A stretch of 53,463 nt of DNA. It comes from Gemmatimonadota bacterium. GTDB taxonomy: Bacteria > Gemmatimonadota > Gemmatimonadetes > Gemmatimonadales > GWC2-71-9. The stretch spans positions 1 to 53,463 of the forward strand of contig QHUT01000096.1 in the NCBI GenBank assembly GCA_003222055.1. Direction: 5' to 3'. This document shows, in pieces, positions 2,888 to 53,463 of this stretch. Numbering within the stretch: position 1 is the stretch's first letter; each line of letters begins with the position of its first letter. A program made the position numbers and the translations under genes. The notes below the pieces were generated by a model. It was not told the origin of the DNA, searched no databases, and was given only the letters and a program-made list of their open reading frames with translations.

Positions 2888-3907
2888 ATGCTCCGACTTC
2901 CCTCGTTCACCTATCTGCAACCTCGCACGCTCCACGAGGCGCTCGCGATGAAGACGGACGCGGGCCCCGATGGGATGTACGTGGCCGGAGGCACGGACCT
3001 TTACCCGAACATGAAGCGGCGACATCAGGAGCCGCGCACGGTCATCTCTCTTATGGGCATTCCGGAGCTCGCACAAATCGGAATGCGGAATGCGCAATGC
3101 GGAATTGGACCATGTGTGACACTCACCACAGTATCTGGCCATCCCACGATCCGCGACGACTACGCCGCTGTCGCCCACGCCGCCGGGCTGGTCTCCACCC
3201 CGCTGCTTCGCAACATGGGCACCCTGGGCGGCAACCTCTGCCTCGACACGCGCTGCAATTACTACAATCAGACGTACGAGTGGCGCCAGGCGATCGACTT
3301 CTGTATGAAGAAGGACGGGCACATCTGCTGGGTGGCGCCTTCGTCCCCGCGCTGCTGGGCCGTCAGCTCGTCGGACGTGGCCCCCGTGATGGTCGCGCTG
3401 GGGGCGGACTATGTGCTCGTCGGGCCCGGCGGCGAGCGCGTCGTGCCGGCCGCACGCTTCTATCACAACGACGGGATCAATTACCTGACGAAACAGCCCG
3501 ACGAGGTTCTCTGGGAGGTGCGCCTGCCGCGGCCGGATGGGTGGGACGCGGTGTATCACAAGCTGCGCCGCCGTGACTCGTTCGACTTTCCCGTGCTCGG
3601 TGTGGCGGCATGGGTGAGATGGGAAGGGGGACGAGGGACGAGGGACGAGGGACGGGTAGCGGAGGCGCGCATCGTGCTGGGCGGCGTGGCGAGCTGGCCG
3701 CAGGAGGTGCCCGAGGCAGGCGCCGCGCTCGTCGGGACCGACCTGTCGGACGAGGGTGTAGCGGCCGCCGCCGACGCCGCGTATCGACCCGCCAAGCCGA
3801 TGGACAACACCGACTTCGATCTGTCGTGGCGCAAGCAGATGACGCGCGTCTATGTGAGCCGGGCCCTGGCCGAGCTGCGCCGGCGCCGCCTCCCTCCCGC
3901 GCGATGA
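2888..3907 (+). CDS. FAD-binding medium subunit with extra [4Fe-4S] loop (4-hydroxybenzoyl-CoA reductase HcrB-like)
   Basis: FAD subunit of the molybdoenzyme, 339 residues; ATG lies 6 bases after the large-subunit stop. FAD contacts are YVAGGTDLYP (31-40) and the MGTLGGNLC loop (110-118). Unlike ordinary xanthine dehydrogenase or CO dehydrogenase medium subunits, a ~40-residue insertion follows with Cys123, Cys139, Cys147 and Cys156; the 16-8-9 spacing is the one I know for the additional [4Fe-4S] cluster of Thauera HcrB. That cluster allows low-potential electrons from ferredoxin to drive reductive dehydroxylation. Two tandem-repeat patches interrupt the usual fold: residues about 64-72 (3079-3106) and about 242-255 (3628-3655), both in frame. 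Last gene of the three-gene operon. Confidence 0.9.
   Translation: MLRLPSFTYLQPRTLHEALAMKTDAGPDGMYVAGGTDLYPNMKRRHQEPRTVISLMGIPELAQIGMRNAQCGIGPCVTLTTVSGHPTIRDDYAAVAHAAGLVSTPLLRNMGTLGGNLCLDTRCNYYNQTYEWRQAIDFCMKKDGHICWVAPSSPRCWAVSSSDVAPVMVALGADYVLVGPGGERVVPAARFYHNDGINYLTKQPDEVLWEVRLPRPDGWDAVYHKLRRRDSFDFPVLGVAAWVRWEGGRGTRDEGRVAEARIVLGGVASWPQEVPEAGAALVGTDLSDEGVAAAADAAYRPAKPMDNTDFDLSWRKQMTRVYVSRALAELRRRRLPPAR
3079..3106 (+). repeat. In-frame heptanucleotide tandem repeat, 4 units (CGGAATG type)
   Basis: Units CGGAATG, CGGAATG, CGCAATG, CGGAATT follow each other with a 7-bp period within the FAD-subunit gene, encoding about residues 64-72 (MRNAQCGI), where relatives normally have a short turn. It is AT-richer than its surroundings and resembles the 7-bp units of the fold-back at 35244-35339. 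Confidence 0.8.
3628..3655 (+). repeat. In-frame heptanucleotide tandem repeat, 4 units (GGGACGA type)
   Basis: Three perfect GGGACGA units plus GGGACGG, in frame in the FAD-subunit gene. They encode a charged stretch (GRGTRDEGR) between two b-strands of the C-terminal domain, probably a surface loop that tolerates length change. Confidence 0.85.
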
Positions 3908-34106: not shown

Positions 34107-35244
34107 CGTCGCGCTCGCGTTGCTCGCGGCCGCCGCCCCGTGGGGAGCGGGCGGGACGCTCTCGGCGCAGCGCTACTGGCGCGGCAGCTTCTATCCCAAT
34201 CTGTCCCACAGCACGGGCGACGGGTTGTGGATCGGGCTCCACTACGGGCGGTACAGCCCCGTCGGCTTCGCCGAGCGGCCGGAGCCGAACTACGCCTCGA
34301 TCAACCTCGATGCCGGGGCCAGTACCCAGGGCAGCTACGCGTTCGTCGTGGACGCGCAAGCACCGGCCTGGTGGCCCGGCTGGCGGGCCGGACTCGCCTT
34401 CGGCGCCGTGCGCGTGAACCGATTGGGCTATTACGGACTGGGAAACGACACGGAATACTCGAGGGACAGCCTCACGACCGCCGGGTCCTACTTCTACAAG
34501 GTCAGCCGCACTACCCAGTTTGCGCGCGCCGGCGTGCAGCGCCGGGTGATCGGACCCCTGCGGGTCCTAGCCGGCGCTTCCATCGAGCACACCGACTTCC
34601 GCGCCCTCCCGGGCCGGAGCGTGTTTGGCAGCGATCTCGCCGCCGGGGTTGTCGATCCGGGTACGATCCCGTTCACCGACAAGGTGGTCCGCGCGGGCGT
34701 CGTCCTGGATACGCGGGACAACGAAATCGACCCGCATCGCGGCGTCGCCGCGGAAGCGCTGTTCGCGAGCGGCACGAGGTACACGCGCACGACGGCGAGC
34801 GCTCGGTTATATGTGCATCCCTTGCAGCGGCTGGTTCTGGCGGGGCGGATCGGGGCCGAGGGCACGGGCGGGAACCCGCCCCTGGCGGCGCTGGAACTGA
34901 TGGAGTCGTCGGCGCGGCCCTTCGTGGCGGTGGGCGGTTACTACTCGCTGCGCGCGTACTATAACGGTCGATTCACGGGGCCGGGCAAGCTGATCGGCGG
35001 CCTGGAGGCGCGGTACGCGCTCATCTCGGTGCCGAGCGTGGTCGAAGTCAAGCTGGTCGGGTTCTACGACGCCGGTCGCGTGTTCGAGCGGGGGGAGGCG
35101 GTCCGGCTCACCACCACCGGCCTCCACGGTAGCGGCGGCGCGGAGCTGGCGCTGCGCCTGCTCCGCAATTCACTCCTGTGCATGGGCTATGGCCACGGGA
35201 GCGATGGGGGACGGTTCCTGTTTGGGACCAGTTGGAGTTACTGA
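33991..35244 (+). CDS. Outer-membrane BamA/TamA-type (Omp85, surface antigen D15) barrel protein
   Basis: A b-barrel protein without POTRA domains, ending in FGTSWSY, a classic aromatic barrel terminus. The Omp85 signature appears as VVRAGVVLDTRDNEIDPHRG, and strand-turn repeats run through the C-terminal half. Signal peptide hydrophobic core is VALALLAAAAPWGAG with cleavage near LSAQ. The start is unsure: GTG 33991 or 33994 would give a ~35-residue Arg/Ser/Pro-rich pre-signal overlapping the asparaginase gene, while no ATG, GTG or TTG lies nearer; ATC 34075 would be non-canonical. It may insert or secrete a partner, or be a plain porin-like barrel. Confidence 0.82.
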   Translation: MVSSAPPHSTRGATPRTTESRPNSGTWPISTSAPPRAASVALALLAAAAPWGAGGTLSAQRYWRGSFYPNLSHSTGDGLWIGLHYGRYSPVGFAERPEPNYASINLDAGASTQGSYAFVVDAQAPAWWPGWRAGLAFGAVRVNRLGYYGLGNDTEYSRDSLTTAGSYFYKVSRTTQFARAGVQRRVIGPLRVLAGASIEHTDFRALPGRSVFGSDLAAGVVDPGTIPFTDKVVRAGVVLDTRDNEIDPHRGVAAEALFASGTRYTRTTASARLYVHPLQRLVLAGRIGAEGTGGNPPLAALELMESSARPFVAVGGYYSLRAYYNGRFTGPGKLIGGLEARYALISVPSVVEVKLVGFYDAGRVFERGEAVRLTTTGLHGSGGAELALRLLRNSLLCMGYGHGSDGGRFLFGTSWSY

Positions 35245-35339
35245 ATTGCGGATTGCGGATTGCTGATTGCGGATTGGACGGTGCCGACCTCTCGACGCTC
35301 GTCATGCCAATCCGCAATCCGAAATCCAAATCCGCAATT
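35244..35339. repeat. Fold-back of heptanucleotide repeats between convergent genes
   Basis: Left arm 35244-35277 is five units of GATTGCG type with a 7-bp period. Right arm 35307-35339 is its inverted copy with a few mismatches. A 29-bp centre separates them. The element spans exactly from the stop of the outer-membrane gene to the stop of the saccharopine-dehydrogenase-like gene and is much AT-richer than the flanks. It probably serves as a bidirectional terminator. Confidence 0.85.
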
Positions 35340-36471
35340 AGACCTCCCGAATCTCCACGCCGCGCTTGGCGAGCTCTGCAACGTACGCGCCGAACGGCAC
35401 GGCTTCATCGGGCGTGCGCACTCCCTTCACGGCGATACGGCCGTCCACCTGCATGAGGCCGGTGATCGCGAGCGAATACCCCGTCGTCCGCATCATCGCA
35501 CTGATGCCGTGGGCTGCGTCGTAGTAATCGAGCAGCTGCCAGGCGGCCCGCTTCCCGTTGTCGGCGCGCACCTCGACACGCAAGGCGACCAGGTCGCGCC
35601 CGTCGGGTTTGGTGAGCTTGGGGGACACGGTCGTGATGAAGGCATCGCGCGGCACGACGTCCGTCCCGTTCACCCTCACGGGAGTCAGGTCGAGCAGCCC
35701 CAGCTCGCGGATGGGGCGCATGATTGCAACGTGCCCGGGGTAGCGCAGCGTCTTGTACTCCATCGTCCGGACCCGGCCCTCGTACGCCCACGGCATGGTG
35801 GAGATGCCCCCGCCCGTGTGGAACGCCTCGAGCTCGCCCACCGGCGGGGGGAAGGCGACGTGCTCGAGCTCCGAGAGCGCCTCCACGCGCGCCGGCCTGC
35901 CGTCGCGCAGCACCCATGAGGGCGTCGTGTAGTAGTCGAGCGCGCCGGCGAGCGAGTACACGATCTGGTAGTTGAGAGGGGGCTCGGGATGCTGCGGCAG
36001 GCCGCCGACGTAGATCTTCACGACGTCGGCGTCCCCCACCCGGCGGATCCCCTCCGCCGCGAGGATGTTGACCATCCCCGGCGCGAGGCCGCAGTCGGGG
36101 ATGATGGACACGCGCCGCGCCTGCGCTTCGGCGTCGAGCGCCTTCTGCTGAAAGACGATCTCGGTGTTGCCGCCCAGGTCGGCGCAGTGGACCCCGGCAT
36201 CCAGCGCCGCGCGCGACACCGCGAGGTTGAAGTAGTACGGCGCCGCGTTCTGCACCGCTTCGTGACCGCGCATCGCGTCGCGCAGCGCCGCGCCGTCCTG
36301 CACGTCGAGCTTGAGGAGCGCGAGCCGTCGGCCGGCATGGGGTCGGAGCACCGCGGGGATGCGGTCCGGCTCGAGGTCGGCGATCGTGACGCGCTCCACG
36401 CCGGGCTGCTGCAACAGATCATAGGCGCAGGCGGACCCTTGCAGGCCCGCGCCCAGAACCAACATGCGCAT
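35338..36471 (-). CDS. Saccharopine dehydrogenase-family oxidoreductase
   Basis: 377 residues. N-terminal Rossmann domain (MRMLVLGAGLQGSACAYDL, then VQNAAPYYFNLAVSRAALDAG and HCADLGGNTEIV), followed by the saccharopine-reductase-like a/b domain (CGLAPGMVNILAAEG, YTTPSWVLRDG). Related enzymes act on lysine-derived imines or as L-lysine dehydrogenase / carboxynorspermidine synthase; the substrate cannot be chosen from sequence alone. The TAA stop lies within the right arm of a heptamer fold-back. Confidence 0.88.
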   Translation of the reverse strand: MRMLVLGAGLQGSACAYDLLQQPGVERVTIADLEPDRIPAVLRPHAGRRLALLKLDVQDGAALRDAMRGHEAVQNAAPYYFNLAVSRAALDAGVHCADLGGNTEIVFQQKALDAEAQARRVSIIPDCGLAPGMVNILAAEGIRRVGDADVVKIYVGGLPQHPEPPLNYQIVYSLAGALDYYTTPSWVLRDGRPARVEALSELEHVAFPPPVGELEAFHTGGGISTMPWAYEGRVRTMEYKTLRYPGHVAIMRPIRELGLLDLTPVRVNGTDVVPRDAFITTVSPKLTKPDGRDLVALRVEVRADNGKRAAWQLLDYYDAAHGISAMMRTTGYSLAITGLMQVDGRIAVKGVRTPDEAVPFGAYVAELAKRGVEIREV

Positions 36472-36568
36472 GACGCGATTGCCTCCGGACGACGTGAGGG
36501 AATGCGGCGCCGAAACCTAGCGAGGCCAGGCCACCGCTGGAACCCCTGGGAGGTTAGATTCGCGCCCG

Positions 36569-37144
36569 ATGAGCCAAGCCGACTTGACGCGCGAGCGCCT
36601 GGTCCGAGCGGCGCTGGAGCTGTTCACCGCGCAGGGATACCACGACACCACCACGCCCGCGATCGCGAAGAAGGCCGGGGTGGCCGAGGGGACGATCTAC
36701 CGTCATTTCGCCGGCAAGCAGCAGTTCTTCAACGAGCTGTACCGCGCCTCGGCGCGCTGGGCCGACAACCTCGTCAAGGACGCCAACGCCCTCAAGGTGG
36801 GGCCACGCGAGAAGCTGGCCGAGCTCGCCCGCGGGCTCGTCGCGGGTGCGGCGCGCGAGCCGGCCGTAGCGCGCCTCTTCTTCGTGCAGCGCTACGACGA
36901 TCTCCTCGACGAGGAGAGCCGCAAGACGGCCCGCGAATTCCGGGTCGACCTCGAGAGCCTCATCGCGCAGGGCAAGGCGGACGGCTCCGTGAAGCCCGGG
37001 GCTGCCGAGATATGGGCGGGCGTGTGGCTCGGCGTCGTCACCCTGGCGATCGATCACATCTCGGCGCGGGAGTGGCCCGAGACGCACGCCGGGGTGAAGC
37101 TGGCGCTCGACGGCGCCTGGGACGCGATCGCGGCACCCCGGTGA
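36569..37144 (+). CDS. TetR-family transcriptional regulator
   Basis: 191 residues. N-terminal helix-turn-helix (about 8-55: LVRAALELFTAQGYHDTTTPAIAKKAGVAEGTIYRHF in two overlapping helices) and a C-terminal ligand-binding/dimer domain with FVQRYDDLLDEESRK and a hydrophobic helix WAGVWLGVVTLAI. Target and ligand unknown; it is divergent from the saccharopine-dehydrogenase-like gene, 97 bases away, so that gene is the first candidate target. The stop codon lies in the left arm of a long inverted repeat. Confidence 0.93.
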   Translation: MSQADLTRERLVRAALELFTAQGYHDTTTPAIAKKAGVAEGTIYRHFAGKQQFFNELYRASARWADNLVKDANALKVGPREKLAELARGLVAGAAREPAVARLFFVQRYDDLLDEESRKTAREFRVDLESLIAQGKADGSVKPGAAEIWAGVWLGVVTLAIDHISAREWPETHAGVKLALDGAWDAIAAPR

Positions 37145-37212
37145 GGCGGTTGGGGTCCCACTCCGCGACAAAACGACGCAGTCGCTGCGTGGGACCCCAA
37201 CCGCCTCACCGG
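37138..37212. terminator. 24-bp perfect inverted repeat (probable bidirectional terminator)
   Basis: Arms 37138-37161 and 37189-37212 are exact reverse complements (24 of 24) around a 27-base loop. The left arm contains the tetR stop and the right arm ends 13 bases before the metallophosphoesterase stop. No T-run follows either arm. Sequence differs from the other palindromes in the window. Confidence 0.75.
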
Positions 37213-37225
37213 CCCACCCCCGACC

Positions 37226-38479
37226 TCACCGGCGCCTAAGCTCGAACAGCTCGATCTCCGGCGGCGCGAACACGCGGATCGGAACGCCGACCACCCCGAT
37301 CCCGCGGCTCACGTACAGCTGGCTCGACCCCCGCTGAAAGTGACCCATCACGTACTTGGTGATCAGGCGTCCCGGCGACCAGCCGATCAGCGGCACGTAG
37401 AACTGGCCGCCGTGGATGTGCCCGGCGAGCGTGAGCGGAATGCCGCGCGGCGCGGCGGAGTCCCAGGCGCCCGGGCGGTGGGCGAGGAGCACCCGAAACG
37501 CATCCGGCGGTGCGGCGGCGAGGGCCGCGTCGACGTCCCTGGTCTGGGGGTCGTCCGCCGTCCAGTTGTGCGGATCGTCGATGCCGAGCAGCGCGAGCGT
37601 GGCCCCGCCCCGCTCGATCACGTGGCAACCGTTCTGCACGAACACCTGCCCCGCCTCGCGGCACGCGCGAATCACCTCGCGCTCGCCCGTGTAGCGGTCG
37701 TGGTTCCCGAGCACCGTCACCACGCCGAGCGGGGCCCGCAGGTCCCGGAACGCGCGCACGTACGCCGGAATGTAGGACTGCGAGATGTCGATCATGTCCC
37801 CCGTCTGCACGATCAGGTCGGGGCGGAGCACGTTGGCCTGCGCCACGATCTCCTGCATCTTGTCCTCCCCGAGATGTACGCCCGCGTGCAGGTCGGAGAG
37901 ATGCAGCAGCGTGAGCCCGTCGAGCCCGGCGGGCAGATCGGGGAACCGGAGCGTGCGGCGTGTCAGCTGGGGAAGCCGATAGGCGCTCCAGATGCCGTAG
38001 GAGGAGAGCGCGACGCCAGCGCCGGCGTAGGCGTACGTGGCGCGGGCGAGGAAGCGGCGACGGGAAAGAGCGGGTGCGCGGTCCGCGGTGCGCGGTTGCT
38101 CCCGGTGCGCATCGGAGTTCCGGTCCGCATCGGCGGCAACCGCGTACCGCGCACTGCGTACCCGCTGCACCAGCCACCATCCCACCTTGCCGAGCAGGTA
38201 CACGGCCACCAGCGCGCAGAAAATCCATCCCAACAGCTGCCAGGCGATCCAGGGGCCGGTGAGCGGGAGCCGGCCGACGCTCCACATGGAGCCGAACAGC
38301 GCACGTTGCGCCACGAACACCCATGGCAGGTTGAACGTCACGAACACGAGCGCCAGCACGGCGCGCACCACCCGCGCTCGATGCGGCCGGCTCGGGTCGG
38401 GCAGGCGCGTGCGCAGGTACAGATAGAGCAGCGCCTGCGGCGCGACGAACAGAAGGAGATAGATTAGGCGCGTGACCAC
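37226..38479 (-). CDS. Membrane metallophosphoesterase (YkuE/YaeI-like)
   Basis: 417 residues. Three N-terminal membrane helices (LIYLLLFVAPQALLYLYL, VVRAVLALVFVTFNLPWVFV, WQLLGWIFCALVAVYLLG), then a repeat-derived Arg/Ala/Asp-rich linker (about 105-137), a fourth helix after SRRRFLARATYAYAGAG, and the calcineurin-like domain with all metal motifs: HLSDLHAG, QTGDMID, LGNHDRY, and GHIHGG. Relatives hydrolyse lipid-linked or UDP-sugar phosphates at the membrane. GTG 38479 is used; it overlaps the divergent S41 peptidase start by 8 bases, so one of the two starts is likely a little further in. Confidence 0.9.
   Translation of the reverse strand: MVTRLIYLLLFVAPQALLYLYLRTRLPDPSRPHRARVVRAVLALVFVTFNLPWVFVAQRALFGSMWSVGRLPLTGPWIAWQLLGWIFCALVAVYLLGKVGWWLVQRVRSARYAVAADADRNSDAHREQPRTADRAPALSRRRFLARATYAYAGAGVALSSYGIWSAYRLPQLTRRTLRFPDLPAGLDGLTLLHLSDLHAGVHLGEDKMQEIVAQANVLRPDLIVQTGDMIDISQSYIPAYVRAFRDLRAPLGVVTVLGNHDRYTGEREVIRACREAGQVFVQNGCHVIERGGATLALLGIDDPHNWTADDPQTRDVDAALAAAPPDAFRVLLAHRPGAWDSAAPRGIPLTLAGHIHGGQFYVPLIGWSPGRLITKYVMGHFQRGSSQLYVSRGIGVVGVPIRVFAPPEIELFELRRR
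38069..38166 (-). repeat. In-frame fold-back of heptanucleotide repeats inside the metallophosphoesterase gene
   Basis: Left arm 38069-38097 holds GTGCGCG, GTCCGCG, GTGCGCG; right arm 38138-38166 holds CGCGTAC, CGCGCAC, TGCGTAC and is an inverted copy of the left (about 24 of 29). The centre contains a near-duplicate 14-mer (38102-38115 and 38120-38133). Size and build match the intergenic fold-back at 35244-35339, yet here it is translated as a linker between membrane helices 3 and 4. Confidence 0.8.
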
Positions 38480-39773
38480 TCGCTCCAAGCTCCTGATGTA
38501 TCTGGCCGCCCTGTCGCTCGTGCCGCTCCGCGCGGTGGCCGCACAGCAGCTCACCGCCCCCGAGCGCGCTCACGCCCTCGCCACGATCTGGGCCGAGGCC
38601 CGGTACAACTTCGCCTACTGGGACCGCGTGCGGGTCGACTGGGACTCGGCGCTCAGGGTGAATCTGAAGCTCGCCGCCGAACCGCAGCCCGACCTGCTGT
38701 TCTACCGCCGCCTGCGCCGCTTCGTCGCCCTGCTGGGCGACGGACAGGCTGCGGTGCTCGCGCCCCCGAATCTGCGGTCCCGGATCGCGCGCCCGCCGCT
38801 CCTGCTGACGAGCGCCGCGCGCAGACCGTTCATCATGGACTACGCCGAGAACGACGAGATGCGCGTCGCGCACCCCGATCGGCTGGCCGAGATCGTCGCC
38901 GTCCAAGGGGTCCCCGCGGAGTCGTGGATCCGCGACTCGGTGCTCCCGGAGACCCCCGCCGCGACGCCCGCCGACCGCTGGCAGCGGGCCGTCGCCTGGA
39001 TGCTGCAGGGCGAAAAGGGCACCAGCCTGCATCTGCTCATCCGCGTGCCCGGCGGCGATCCCCGAGGGGTGAGCGTGACCCGCTCCGTATCGCTCAACGA
39101 TCGCTGGCCGCTCGACCCACCCGCCTTCGCGGTGGACTCGCTTCCCGGCGGCGTCGCCGTCGTGCGGATCAGCTCGCTCGCCGACGAGGACGTCGTCCGC
39201 CAGTTCGACCGGACCTACCCGGACTTCGCCACCGTACAGGGGCTCGTGCTGGATCTCCGCGGCGCGAGCGGCGGCCAGACCGAGTACGCCTACCAGATCC
39301 TCGCCCGCCTCACGGACCAGCCGTTCCCGGCCGTGCGCTGGAAAACGCCGCAATACCGGGCGGCGTTCCGCGCGTGGAACCTGCCGGACTCCGCCATGAC
39401 CTGGTACGGACCGGCGGCCGGAAGCGTTGCACCGCGGCGCGAGCACCCCCCCTACGGCGGCCCGATCTCGCTGCTGGCGTCGAGCGTCACCTCCGGCGCC
39501 GCGGAAGATTTCCTGGCCGCGTTCCGCGCGTCGGGCCGCGGGGTCATCATCGGCGAGGCGTCCGCCGGGAGCGTGGGCGACATCGCGACGTTCGCGCTCC
39601 CCAAGAACTGGGGCGTCCAGTTCTCGGTCACGCGCCACTCGTTCGCCGACGGGACGGAGTACGCGGGGCTCGGTGTGAAGCCCGACTTGGTGGTCGTCCC
39701 GACGGTGGACGACCTCCTGGCGGGGAACGAGCCGATGCTGGAGCGGGCGCGGGAGTACCTGAAGGGACGGTAG
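38472..39773 (+). CDS. Exported S41-family (tricorn/CtpA-like) serine peptidase
   Basis: 433 residues. Signal peptide (n-region MTTRSK, core LLMYLAALSLVPL, end VAAQ). An N-terminal helical part (PERAHALATIWAEARYNFAYWDRV) is typical of tricorn-core-like S41 proteins, then the tail-specific protease domain with VVRISSLADE, LVLDLRGASGG and the nucleophile loop SSVTSGAAEDFL followed by GEASAGSVGD. The Ser-Glu pair in TSGAAEDF favours the tricorn-type triad over the Ser-Lys dyad of CtpB. No PDZ domain is obvious. GTG 38472 gives a better charged n-region than ATG 38496. Confidence 0.88.
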   Translation: MTTRSKLLMYLAALSLVPLRAVAAQQLTAPERAHALATIWAEARYNFAYWDRVRVDWDSALRVNLKLAAEPQPDLLFYRRLRRFVALLGDGQAAVLAPPNLRSRIARPPLLLTSAARRPFIMDYAENDEMRVAHPDRLAEIVAVQGVPAESWIRDSVLPETPAATPADRWQRAVAWMLQGEKGTSLHLLIRVPGGDPRGVSVTRSVSLNDRWPLDPPAFAVDSLPGGVAVVRISSLADEDVVRQFDRTYPDFATVQGLVLDLRGASGGQTEYAYQILARLTDQPFPAVRWKTPQYRAAFRAWNLPDSAMTWYGPAAGSVAPRREHPPYGGPISLLASSVTSGAAEDFLAAFRASGRGVIIGEASAGSVGDIATFALPKNWGVQFSVTRHSFADGTEYAGLGVKPDLVVVPTVDDLLAGNEPMLERAREYLKGR

Positions 39774-51788: not shown

Positions 51789-51822
51789 ACGTTATGGAGC
51801 CCAGCAGCCCGGAGGTGACGCG

Positions 51823-51843
51823 GTGCGTGGTGCGTGGTGCGCG
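51823..51843 (+). repeat. Heptanucleotide repeat forming a lipoprotein gene start
   Basis: GTGCGTG, GTGCGTG, GTGCGCG in tandem; the first unit supplies the GTG start codon and the array encodes MRGAWCA of the signal peptide. Confidence 0.8.
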
Positions 51844-52260
51844 GTGATCCTGGCGGCCTGTGCGACCCCTGCACCTGGAGACCCGCGGGGCGAGATCGCG
51901 GCGATGCTCTCCCGCAGCGCGTCCGACTGGAATCGCGGCGACCTCGCGGGCTTCATGAGCGACTACGCGCACGACTCGCTCACGAGCTACGTCTCCGCCG
52001 GTCACGTGGTGTACGGCTGGCAGACGTTGTTCGATCGCTACCAGACGACCTACTTCGCCCGCGGCAAATCGCGTGACTCGTTGGCGTTCGAGGAGGTACG
52101 GGTGCGCCCGCTCGCACCCGATCTCGCGCTCTGCACCGCGCGCTTCAAGCTGTTGCGCCGGGACTCCGTGACGGCGAGCGGGCCGTTCACGCTCATCCTT
52201 CAGAAGCGCGGAGATCGCTGGCAGATTCTGCACGACCACACGTCTTCGGATCCGAAGTGA
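51823..52260 (+). CDS. SnoaL/DUF4440-like lipoprotein
   Basis: 145 residues, NTF2-like fold: IAAMLSRSASDWNRGDLAGFM, YGWQTLFDRYQTTYF, and FTLILQKRGDRWQILHDHTSS, the usual strand order of DUF4440 proteins. Lipobox VILAAC puts the lipid on Cys13. GTG 51823 has GGAGG at 7 bases. Its first seven codons are made from three GTGCGTG-type heptamers, so the signal peptide n-region is repeat-derived. Small-molecule binding pocket likely; no catalytic residues can be assigned. Confidence 0.85.
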   Translation: MRGAWCAVILAACATPAPGDPRGEIAAMLSRSASDWNRGDLAGFMSDYAHDSLTSYVSAGHVVYGWQTLFDRYQTTYFARGKSRDSLAFEEVRVRPLAPDLALCTARFKLLRRDSVTASGPFTLILQKRGDRWQILHDHTSSDPK

Positions 52261-53463
52261 CGCGTCGCGCATCCCGCATCCCGCATCCCGGCCTCCTCCT
52301 CATGTTCGTGCTGGCCGGCTGCAAGGGCTCCGGCGACGGTGTCATCGCGCTCGAGGGGGCGACGTTGATCGACGGCTCGGGCCGCGCTCCGGTGCAGGAT
52401 GCCCTGGTCCTCGTGAAGAACGGCCACATCCAGGCCGTGGCCCGGGTGAACGAGGTCCCGGTGCCGCGCGGCGCGCGCACGGTGAGCCTGATCGGGAAGA
52501 CGGTGATGCCGGGGCTGGTCGACGCGCACGCTCACGTGGAGCGCTGGGCGGTCGAGCGCTACCTCGCCTGGGGCGTCACCACGGTGCGGGACCTCGGCGC
52601 GTCGAGCACCGACTCCGCGATCGCCCTCAAGAACGACCTCGACCTCGGCTCGGTGCTGGGCCCGCGCATGTTCACCTCCGGGGCCATGATCGACGGCGCG
52701 CCGCCCACCTACCCCGCGGCCACCGCCGTCCGAAGCCGCGCCGACGTGCGCAAGGCGGTCGACCTGCGCGCCGTCGCCGGGGCGGACCTGGTCAAGATCT
52801 ACACGAAGTTCACCGCCGACCTGCTGCCGGCGCTGGTGGACGAGGCGTCGACGCTGCGGTTTCCGGTGGCGGCGCACCTCGGCAAGATCGACGCGCTGAC
52901 CGCGGCCCGGGCCGGGGTCGCGTCACTCGAGCACATGGCGGGCGTGGTGCAGGCGGCGAGTCGCGACCCGGGCCCCTACCTCCGGGCTCACGACCAGTTC
53001 CTGCGCGGCTGGACCCTGGAGGAGGCGGGGTGGGCGCTGCTCGACTCCGCCGCGCTCGAGCGCGTGGCCCGGGGGCTCGCCGCCACGCACGTGGCCCTCG
53101 TTCCGACGCTCGTGCTCCACGAGATGCTCTCCCGGCTCGACAACCCCACGCTGCTGTCGCGCCCCGGCATGGAGGACGTGCCCCCCGCGGCGACGAGCGT
53201 GCGCGACGTCGCGGGCCTGCTGCGGCGCAGCGGCTGGCGCGCGGGCGACCTGCAGGCGTTCCGCCGGTCGCGCGCGCGCCAGAACCAGTTCGTGCGCGAG
53301 TTCAAGCGGGCGGGGGGGCTCGTCGCCGCGGGCTCCGACGCCGCGAACCAGCTGCTCGTGCCGGGGCTGTCGTTGCACGAGGAAATGAGCCTGCTGGTCG
53401 GCGCCGGCCTCACCCCGGTCGAGGCCATCACCGCCGCCACGCGCAAGGGCGCCGAGGTGTTGC
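52257..53463 (+). CDS. Amidohydrolase-family lipoprotein, 3'-truncated by the window end
   Basis: At least 402 residues. Lipobox LAGC follows a short signal (LLLMFVLAGC). Metal-dependent hydrolase domain with His91 and His93 (VDAHAHVE), Lys180 (LVKIYTK, the carboxylated lysine), His207 (AAHLGK), His226 (LEHMAG) and Asp361 (GSDAAN), the binuclear set of the imidazolonepropionase / Xaa-Pro dipeptidase group. GTG 52257 overlaps the previous stop (GTGA). The n-region is encoded by three GCATCCC heptamers (52269-52289). Likely cleaves an amide or dipeptide in the periplasm; the substrate is unknown. The usual C-terminal composite domain lies beyond the window. Confidence 0.9.
   Translation, partial: MTRRASRIPHPGLLLMFVLAGCKGSGDGVIALEGATLIDGSGRAPVQDALVLVKNGHIQAVARVNEVPVPRGARTVSLIGKTVMPGLVDAHAHVERWAVERYLAWGVTTVRDLGASSTDSAIALKNDLDLGSVLGPRMFTSGAMIDGAPPTYPAATAVRSRADVRKAVDLRAVAGADLVKIYTKFTADLLPALVDEASTLRFPVAAHLGKIDALTAARAGVASLEHMAGVVQAASRDPGPYLRAHDQFLRGWTLEEAGWALLDSAALERVARGLAATHVALVPTLVLHEMLSRLDNPTLLSRPGMEDVPPAATSVRDVAGLLRRSGWRAGDLQAFRRSRARQNQFVREFKRAGGLVAAGSDAANQLLVPGLSLHEEMSLLVGAGLTPVEAITAATRKGAEVL
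52269..52289 (+). repeat. Heptanucleotide repeat within an amidohydrolase signal peptide
   Basis: Three perfect GCATCCC units, in frame, encoding SRIPHP between the start codon and the hydrophobic core. Confidence 0.85.

Follow-up and report, generated by a model that had tools for sequence, protein, structure and literature searches.

Dispersed arrays of G-rich heptamers are known from Xanthomonas and Nostoc (GGGAATC / GGGGA(C/T)T, mostly about four units long), and each Xanthomonas genome carries 70-75 convergent inverted pairs of them, some intragenic (Rehm et al, 2015, PMC4692102); the arrays that we describe here resemble these in being dispersed, G-rich and 7 nt in period, in forming convergent pairs, and in varying between species in both unit and length (PMC4692102). 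A second parallel is the P6b element of the Nostoc trnL intron, a heptamer stem in which the NNTGAGT class has repeatedly been replaced by TDNGATT (Kaasalainen et al, 2015, PMC4476775). Short dispersed hairpins with lineage-specific populations are also a feature of REPINs and their RAYT transposases (PMC3116915, PMC8266576). Beggiatoaceae genomes also contain genome-wide sets of tandem heptamers, although these consist of one unit (TAACTGA), are direct rather than inverted, and lie mostly in intergenic sequence upstream of start codons (PMC4679880); Borg tandem repeats also evolve fast within ORFs and yield amino-acid repeats, but are perfect direct repeats with no inverted pairs, and in ORFs their unit length is divisible by three (PMC9879509).

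The locus considered here is a 98-bp inverted repeat at 38069-38166, the longest within the window (the whole 53,463-nt stretch analysed, part of a 3.69-Mb draft genome referred to hereafter as G000). It lies within a gene for a membrane metallophosphoesterase (MPE), not far from an intergenic hairpin of related design:

35244-35339: ATTGCGG-heptamer hairpin, intergenic between two convergent genes; absent from the closest relative, G028
37226-38554, minus strand: MPE host gene (Pfam Metallophos), a 442-aa ORF with the hairpin in frame
38069-38116, plus strand: G-rich (5') arm of the hairpin, 48 nt, with the GGTGCGC array at 38073-38096
38119-38166, plus strand: C-rich (3') arm of the hairpin, 48 nt, 81% complementary to the first arm

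Two nucleotides separate the arms, and the heptamers (GGTGCGC x 3.4 at 38073-38096) make up the outer half of each. The element folds far more stably than its dinucleotide shuffles (z -5.8 as DNA and -5.4 as RNA; reached by 0 of 200 shuffles) and has relatives elsewhere in G000, as does the intergenic hairpin, with dozens. In G028, the same convergent genes are separated, at the position of 35244-35343, not by that hairpin but by ~600 bp that apparently hold a thioredoxin-like gene. An initial annotation of this DNA had proposed a 98-bp heptamer-armed fold-back, which our measurements bear out, with arms of 29 bases, which they do not; the arms are 48 nt long and heptameric only in the outer half. 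Its further claim, that the MPE element and 35244-35339 are alike in design and unlike in sequence, agrees with their respective heptamers (GGTGCGC vs ATTGCGG).

The hairpin encodes MPE residues 130-162, QRVRSARYAVAADADRNSDAHREQPRTADRAPA, a charged and variable linker directly before the sequence SRRRFL. The Metallophos domain, of the calcineurin-like phosphoesterase type, occupies residues 215-381, and the linker sits between the third and fourth hydrophobic stretches (delimited by eye rather than by prediction), consistent with the earlier placement of the element in frame between helices 3 and 4; the twin-arginine-like SRRRFL begins the fourth stretch. Full-length orthologues display three apparent hydrophobic helices followed by a conserved twin-arginine-like S/T-R-R-x-F-L, an arrangement that suggests a mixed Sec/Tat membrane protein. 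A separate inverted repeat at 37138-37212 (32 nt, 94% complementary, devoid of heptamers) lies between the end of the neighboring gene (36569-37144) and the MPE stop codon. The region from 34500 to 38700 gave no Rfam match, and the 38069-38166 element, at a protein-coding site, is not part of a group I intron. The MPE site resembles Nostoc P6b in having a heptamer stem at a fixed position with replacement of the repeat class, but P6b is a single group I intron locus with two classes (PMC4476775), whereas here many protein-coding loci and many classes are involved and the unit tracks the genome.

Comparison across orthologues places the MPE site as old. The protein was matched in 45 of 102 genomes of the same Gemmatimonadota family; the linker is common to its closest orthologues, is carried by nearly all orthologues within the family, and is found in those of at least seven genera, showing that the site has been held at the same codons in most of the family. 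The initial annotation had treated the linker as a possible local insertion that might be absent elsewhere, an idea that the orthologue alignment overturns, and recent insertion was ruled out by this family-wide occurrence. Folding energy discriminated weakly between the linker and synonymous shuffles (mean z -1.25) as the amino-acid sequence itself already dictates much of the palindrome, and direct scoring of inverted repeats was used in its place for the orthologue comparison. By this measure, no window of the gene forms a better inverted repeat than the linker DNA in 24 of 27 orthologues, the linker having a mean score of 17.0 vs 7.4 for other windows of the gene and 9.1 for synonymous shuffles. 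We regard it as highly improbable that a G+C-rich disordered linker, or an RNA hairpin, has simply persisted, whether fortuitously or because it serves as a transcription signal, with no special process at work: the linker is indeed charged and variable and the region G+C-rich, but it outscores all other windows of the gene in nearly every orthologue and the synonymous shuffles nearly twofold on average, matches no Rfam family, and switches its units in concert. Chance pairing in a G+C-rich linker, considered as a candidate in its own right, was ruled out by the dinucleotide-shuffle folding together with the orthologue inverted-repeat scores.

The repeat unit at this conserved site differs between genomes (the named relatives among them being soil Gemmatimonadota from metagenomes). 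GGTGCGC is found in G000, G028, and G025; GGTGCGT in G021, G027, G022, G012, and G026; GGGAGCA/GGGAGCT in G013, G014, and G016; GGGGCGT/GGGGAGT in G020 and G019; CGTGCGT in G009 and G005; and octamers around GGCGGTTG in G002, G003, G004, and G007. Pairing between the 5' and 3' arms of one gene scores 17.2, against 8.8 for arms combined across species (a difference reached by 0 of 10,000 permutations). The outcome that the initial annotation had named as telling against its reading, the same linker encoded by non-repetitive DNA, is approached in only ~3 of the 27 orthologues; what it had not foreseen is the rule among the remainder, that the linker is kept while the repeat unit differs, both arms having changed together.

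The same behavior is seen at other coding sites, where arms may be paired or single. Within the window, the single-sided arrays are as follows:

2888-3907: gene for an FAD-binding subunit, holding two single-sided arrays
3079-3105, plus strand: (CGGAATG)n in this gene; relatives carry GGGATGC heptamers or octamers
3621-3654, plus strand: a translated (GGGACGA)n array, also in this gene; the counterpart in relatives is (GGGAAAC)n or (GGGAGCA)n
51822-51846, plus strand: (GGTGCGT)n near an ORF start; units differ in G028
52261-52290, minus strand: (GGGATGC)n near an ORF start, read as CGCATCC on the plus strand

Each of the last two arrays is located at, or close to, the 5' end of one of two neighboring ORFs, and may possibly affect signal peptides or start sites. 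Site 3621 is empty in most relatives; its filled alleles are usually exactly 21 bp, that is, three in-frame heptamers, and the unit is a matter of lineage (GGGACGA, GGGAGCA, GGGAAAC, CGGAACG, or GGGAGCC). Passage from GGGACGA to GGGAAAC at one such coding array amounts to ~12 coordinated changes between genomes that are ~90-94% identical in DNA. In-frame arms, paired or single, were also located in the genes for HflX, RarA/MgsA, CCA nucleotidyltransferase, and RsmA/KsgA; at these sites, the flanks and loop are homologous between species while both arms switch together (the RsmA unit is GGATTGC in G000, GGAACGC in G028 and G027, and GGAGTGC in G025). Across nine sites other than MPE in five genomes, pairing scores 22.9 for a site's own arms, 14.3 when one arm is taken from the orthologous site of a different genome, and 10.6 for unrelated arms. 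Single-sided arrays likewise switch unit between genomes. One region of G027 is present in two copies (L200 and L203) that carry GGATTGC and GGAACGC at the same site, and could be a real duplication or contamination.

These coding sites bear directly on whether the hairpins are mobile palindromic elements of REPIN or MITE type, moved by a transposase, with different lineages receiving insertions of different families at the same tolerant sites. Such elements would fit well with the dispersed copies that share loop cores, with differences in presence and absence between close relatives, and with Y1 transposases in 6 of 10 genomes of the genus. Repeated in-frame insertion at the same codon is nevertheless implausible, and the loops at some coding sites are native coding sequence of 72 to over 400 bp; since this sequence is conserved across species, the arms do not bound an inserted unit. 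Among the 10 genus genomes searched, Y1_Tnp was absent from G026, G027, G022, and G029, two of which are 93-94% complete and yet carry arrays. We therefore consider mobile elements improbable as the source. Relative to REPINs (PMC3116915, PMC8266576), the arms here are tandem heptamers that may flank native coding sequence, and a Y1 transposase is not consistently present in the genomes that carry them.

The arrays form a population distributed through the genome. Period 7 dominates a 729-kb sample of G000, with 94 arrays; no other period between 4 and 13 has more than 14, and the shuffled sequence yields a single array (a further 62 arrays have a period of 14, a multiple of 7). These 94 collapse into 71 elements, approximately one per 10 kb, dispersed as in Xanthomonas and Nostoc and forming close convergent pairs of the same kind. 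The initial annotation had inferred, from one design occurring both between and inside genes, an ongoing process generating heptamer palindromes; the shared design stands, and the process finds support in the period-7 excess and in units specific to lineages. Eighteen unit families coexist in the sample, nearly all GG-N5 on one strand, and the commonest units (GGATTGC and GGAATGC), like the GGTGCGC of the MPE element, have only GG and thus no quadruplex-type G-tract of three, which the GGGA-type units do contain. This coexistence of ~18 families, many with GG only, separates the present arrays from those of Xanthomonas and Nostoc (PMC4692102), as does the location of paired arms in frame at conserved codons of housekeeping genes, where they are replaced together between species (PMC4692102). 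In the open-licence literature that we searched, we met no description of translated array pairs whose arms switch in unison at fixed coding sites, in step with a unit that prevails genome-wide, and nothing relevant for the heptamer strings themselves.

Array pairs obey a strict order. Among arrays of the G000 sample that have an inverted partner within 130 bp, all 67 have it on the downstream side of the G-rich arm and none upstream, and the same G-then-C order holds for period-7 arrays in sampled stretches of eight related genomes, with two exceptions. More than any other observation, this rule hints at a strand-specific step. G-rich units on one strand and G-then-C pairs would be expected if both 3' ends at a break were extended by a telomerase-like or reverse-transcriptase activity adding G-rich heptamers and so creating junctions of G-arm and C-arm; we judge such templated writing very unlikely, as no RVT_1 protein was found in any of the 10 genus genomes (controls were positive) and the arms often enclose native sequence where a junction would be expected. 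Among the short-loop intergenic hairpins, loop cores are more similar than expected by chance (10.7 vs 7.0 for shuffles), from which it follows that whole hairpins are probably copied to new places too.

We observe that the unit goes with the genome rather than with the site. In a test spanning six sites on two contigs in related genomes, comparisons of different GGA-type sites within a genome gave the same unit in 32 of 46 cases, and comparisons of different genomes at a given site did so in 6 of 39 (0 of 20,000 permutations reached this contrast, a figure which, like the p-value below, serves only as a guide because related genomes are not independent). At site 3621, GGGAGCA occurs only in G022, G027, and G098, whose genomes contain 111, 50, and 26 copies of it, respectively; (GGGAGCA)n is nearly absent from G028, where the site carries GGGAAAC. 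Similarly, (GGTGCGC)n is present in 12 copies in G000, 11 in G028, and 3 in G025, all of which have GGTGCGC at the MPE site, and in 0-1 copies in six genomes with GGTGCGT there (Fisher p 0.012). All genomes compared are drafts; assembly error is an unlikely source of these patterns because a typical read is longer than these arrays of ~30 bp and separate assemblies show the same sites.

This co-switching points to a process that rewrites heptamers throughout the genome. As slippage acting independently at each locus cannot produce uniformity across loci, something must act in trans. One candidate is a DNA- or RNA-binding protein that recognizes inverted heptamer pairs, with roles in chromosome organization, transcript stability, or termination, such that pairing and orientation are functional and the sites are selected to follow its drifting specificity. 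Such a factor would account for arm matching, the G-then-C orientation, positional conservation, and genome-wide uniformity; it sits poorly with the several distinct unit families that coexist within G000, with the switching of single-sided arrays, and with the GGGACGA-to-GGGAAAC passage, whose ~12 coordinated changes are too many for point mutation and selection alone, and we hold it to be unlikely, if somewhat less so than mobile elements.

The reading that we favor, and to which we give about an even chance, is that the 38069-38166 element is a fixed, translated member of a population of heptamer inverted repeats and single arrays under genome-wide concerted evolution, through slippage and template switching. 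Slippage by 7/8 nt at seeds containing GG would give rise to arrays and lengthen them, and within genes only those that are in frame and placed in surface loops that tolerate them would persist, the protein linker being a passive passenger. Rewriting would then occur by template switching or gene conversion: in cis, a nascent strand could snap back on the hairpin and copy one arm from the other, and in trans, dispersed arrays of similar unit could exchange, such that one unit spreads through the genome and displaces older ones. We consider this combination, trans template switching or gene conversion with snap-back copying between arms, the most likely mechanism, while recognizing that arrays of ~30 bp with unit identity of ~5/7 and no flanking homology are an unusual substrate for conversion, that neither simple slippage nor symmetric conversion predicts the strict G-then-C orientation, and that the shared loop cores of the intergenic short-loop hairpins suggest copying of whole hairpins in addition; both slippage and conversion are deduced from end states, no event having been seen directly. 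A bolder form, which we advance as a speculative and improbable variant, is an activity that writes arrays, imposing a single current G-rich heptamer at many sites across the genome, strand-specifically and in both arms, even in housekeeping genes; were it real, it would be a template-driven bacterial equivalent of the turnover of telomeres or satellites.

Concerted evolution is a familiar property of eukaryotic satellites. Here it would act on hundreds of very short, dispersed bacterial inverted repeats, including translated segments of enzymes, and the long-standing puzzle of heptamer dominance among bacterial repeats becomes testable, with related species providing a natural before-and-after series of sites and with matching arms and the strand rule constraining any mechanism. 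In this group, peptides like IADCGLR and NPQSAIR, inserted into proteins, are products of DNA repeats rather than conserved protein motifs.

GGA-type arrays were detected in 25 of the 298 genomes of the phylum searched, nearly all of them in the family to which the window belongs. In G123, a distant relative from the same class, the GGA pattern was matched 25 times, always on one strand, a distribution suggestive of a single long array. Arrays of (GGATTGC)3 are also found in 32 stretches of contigs listed as viral by IMG/VR.
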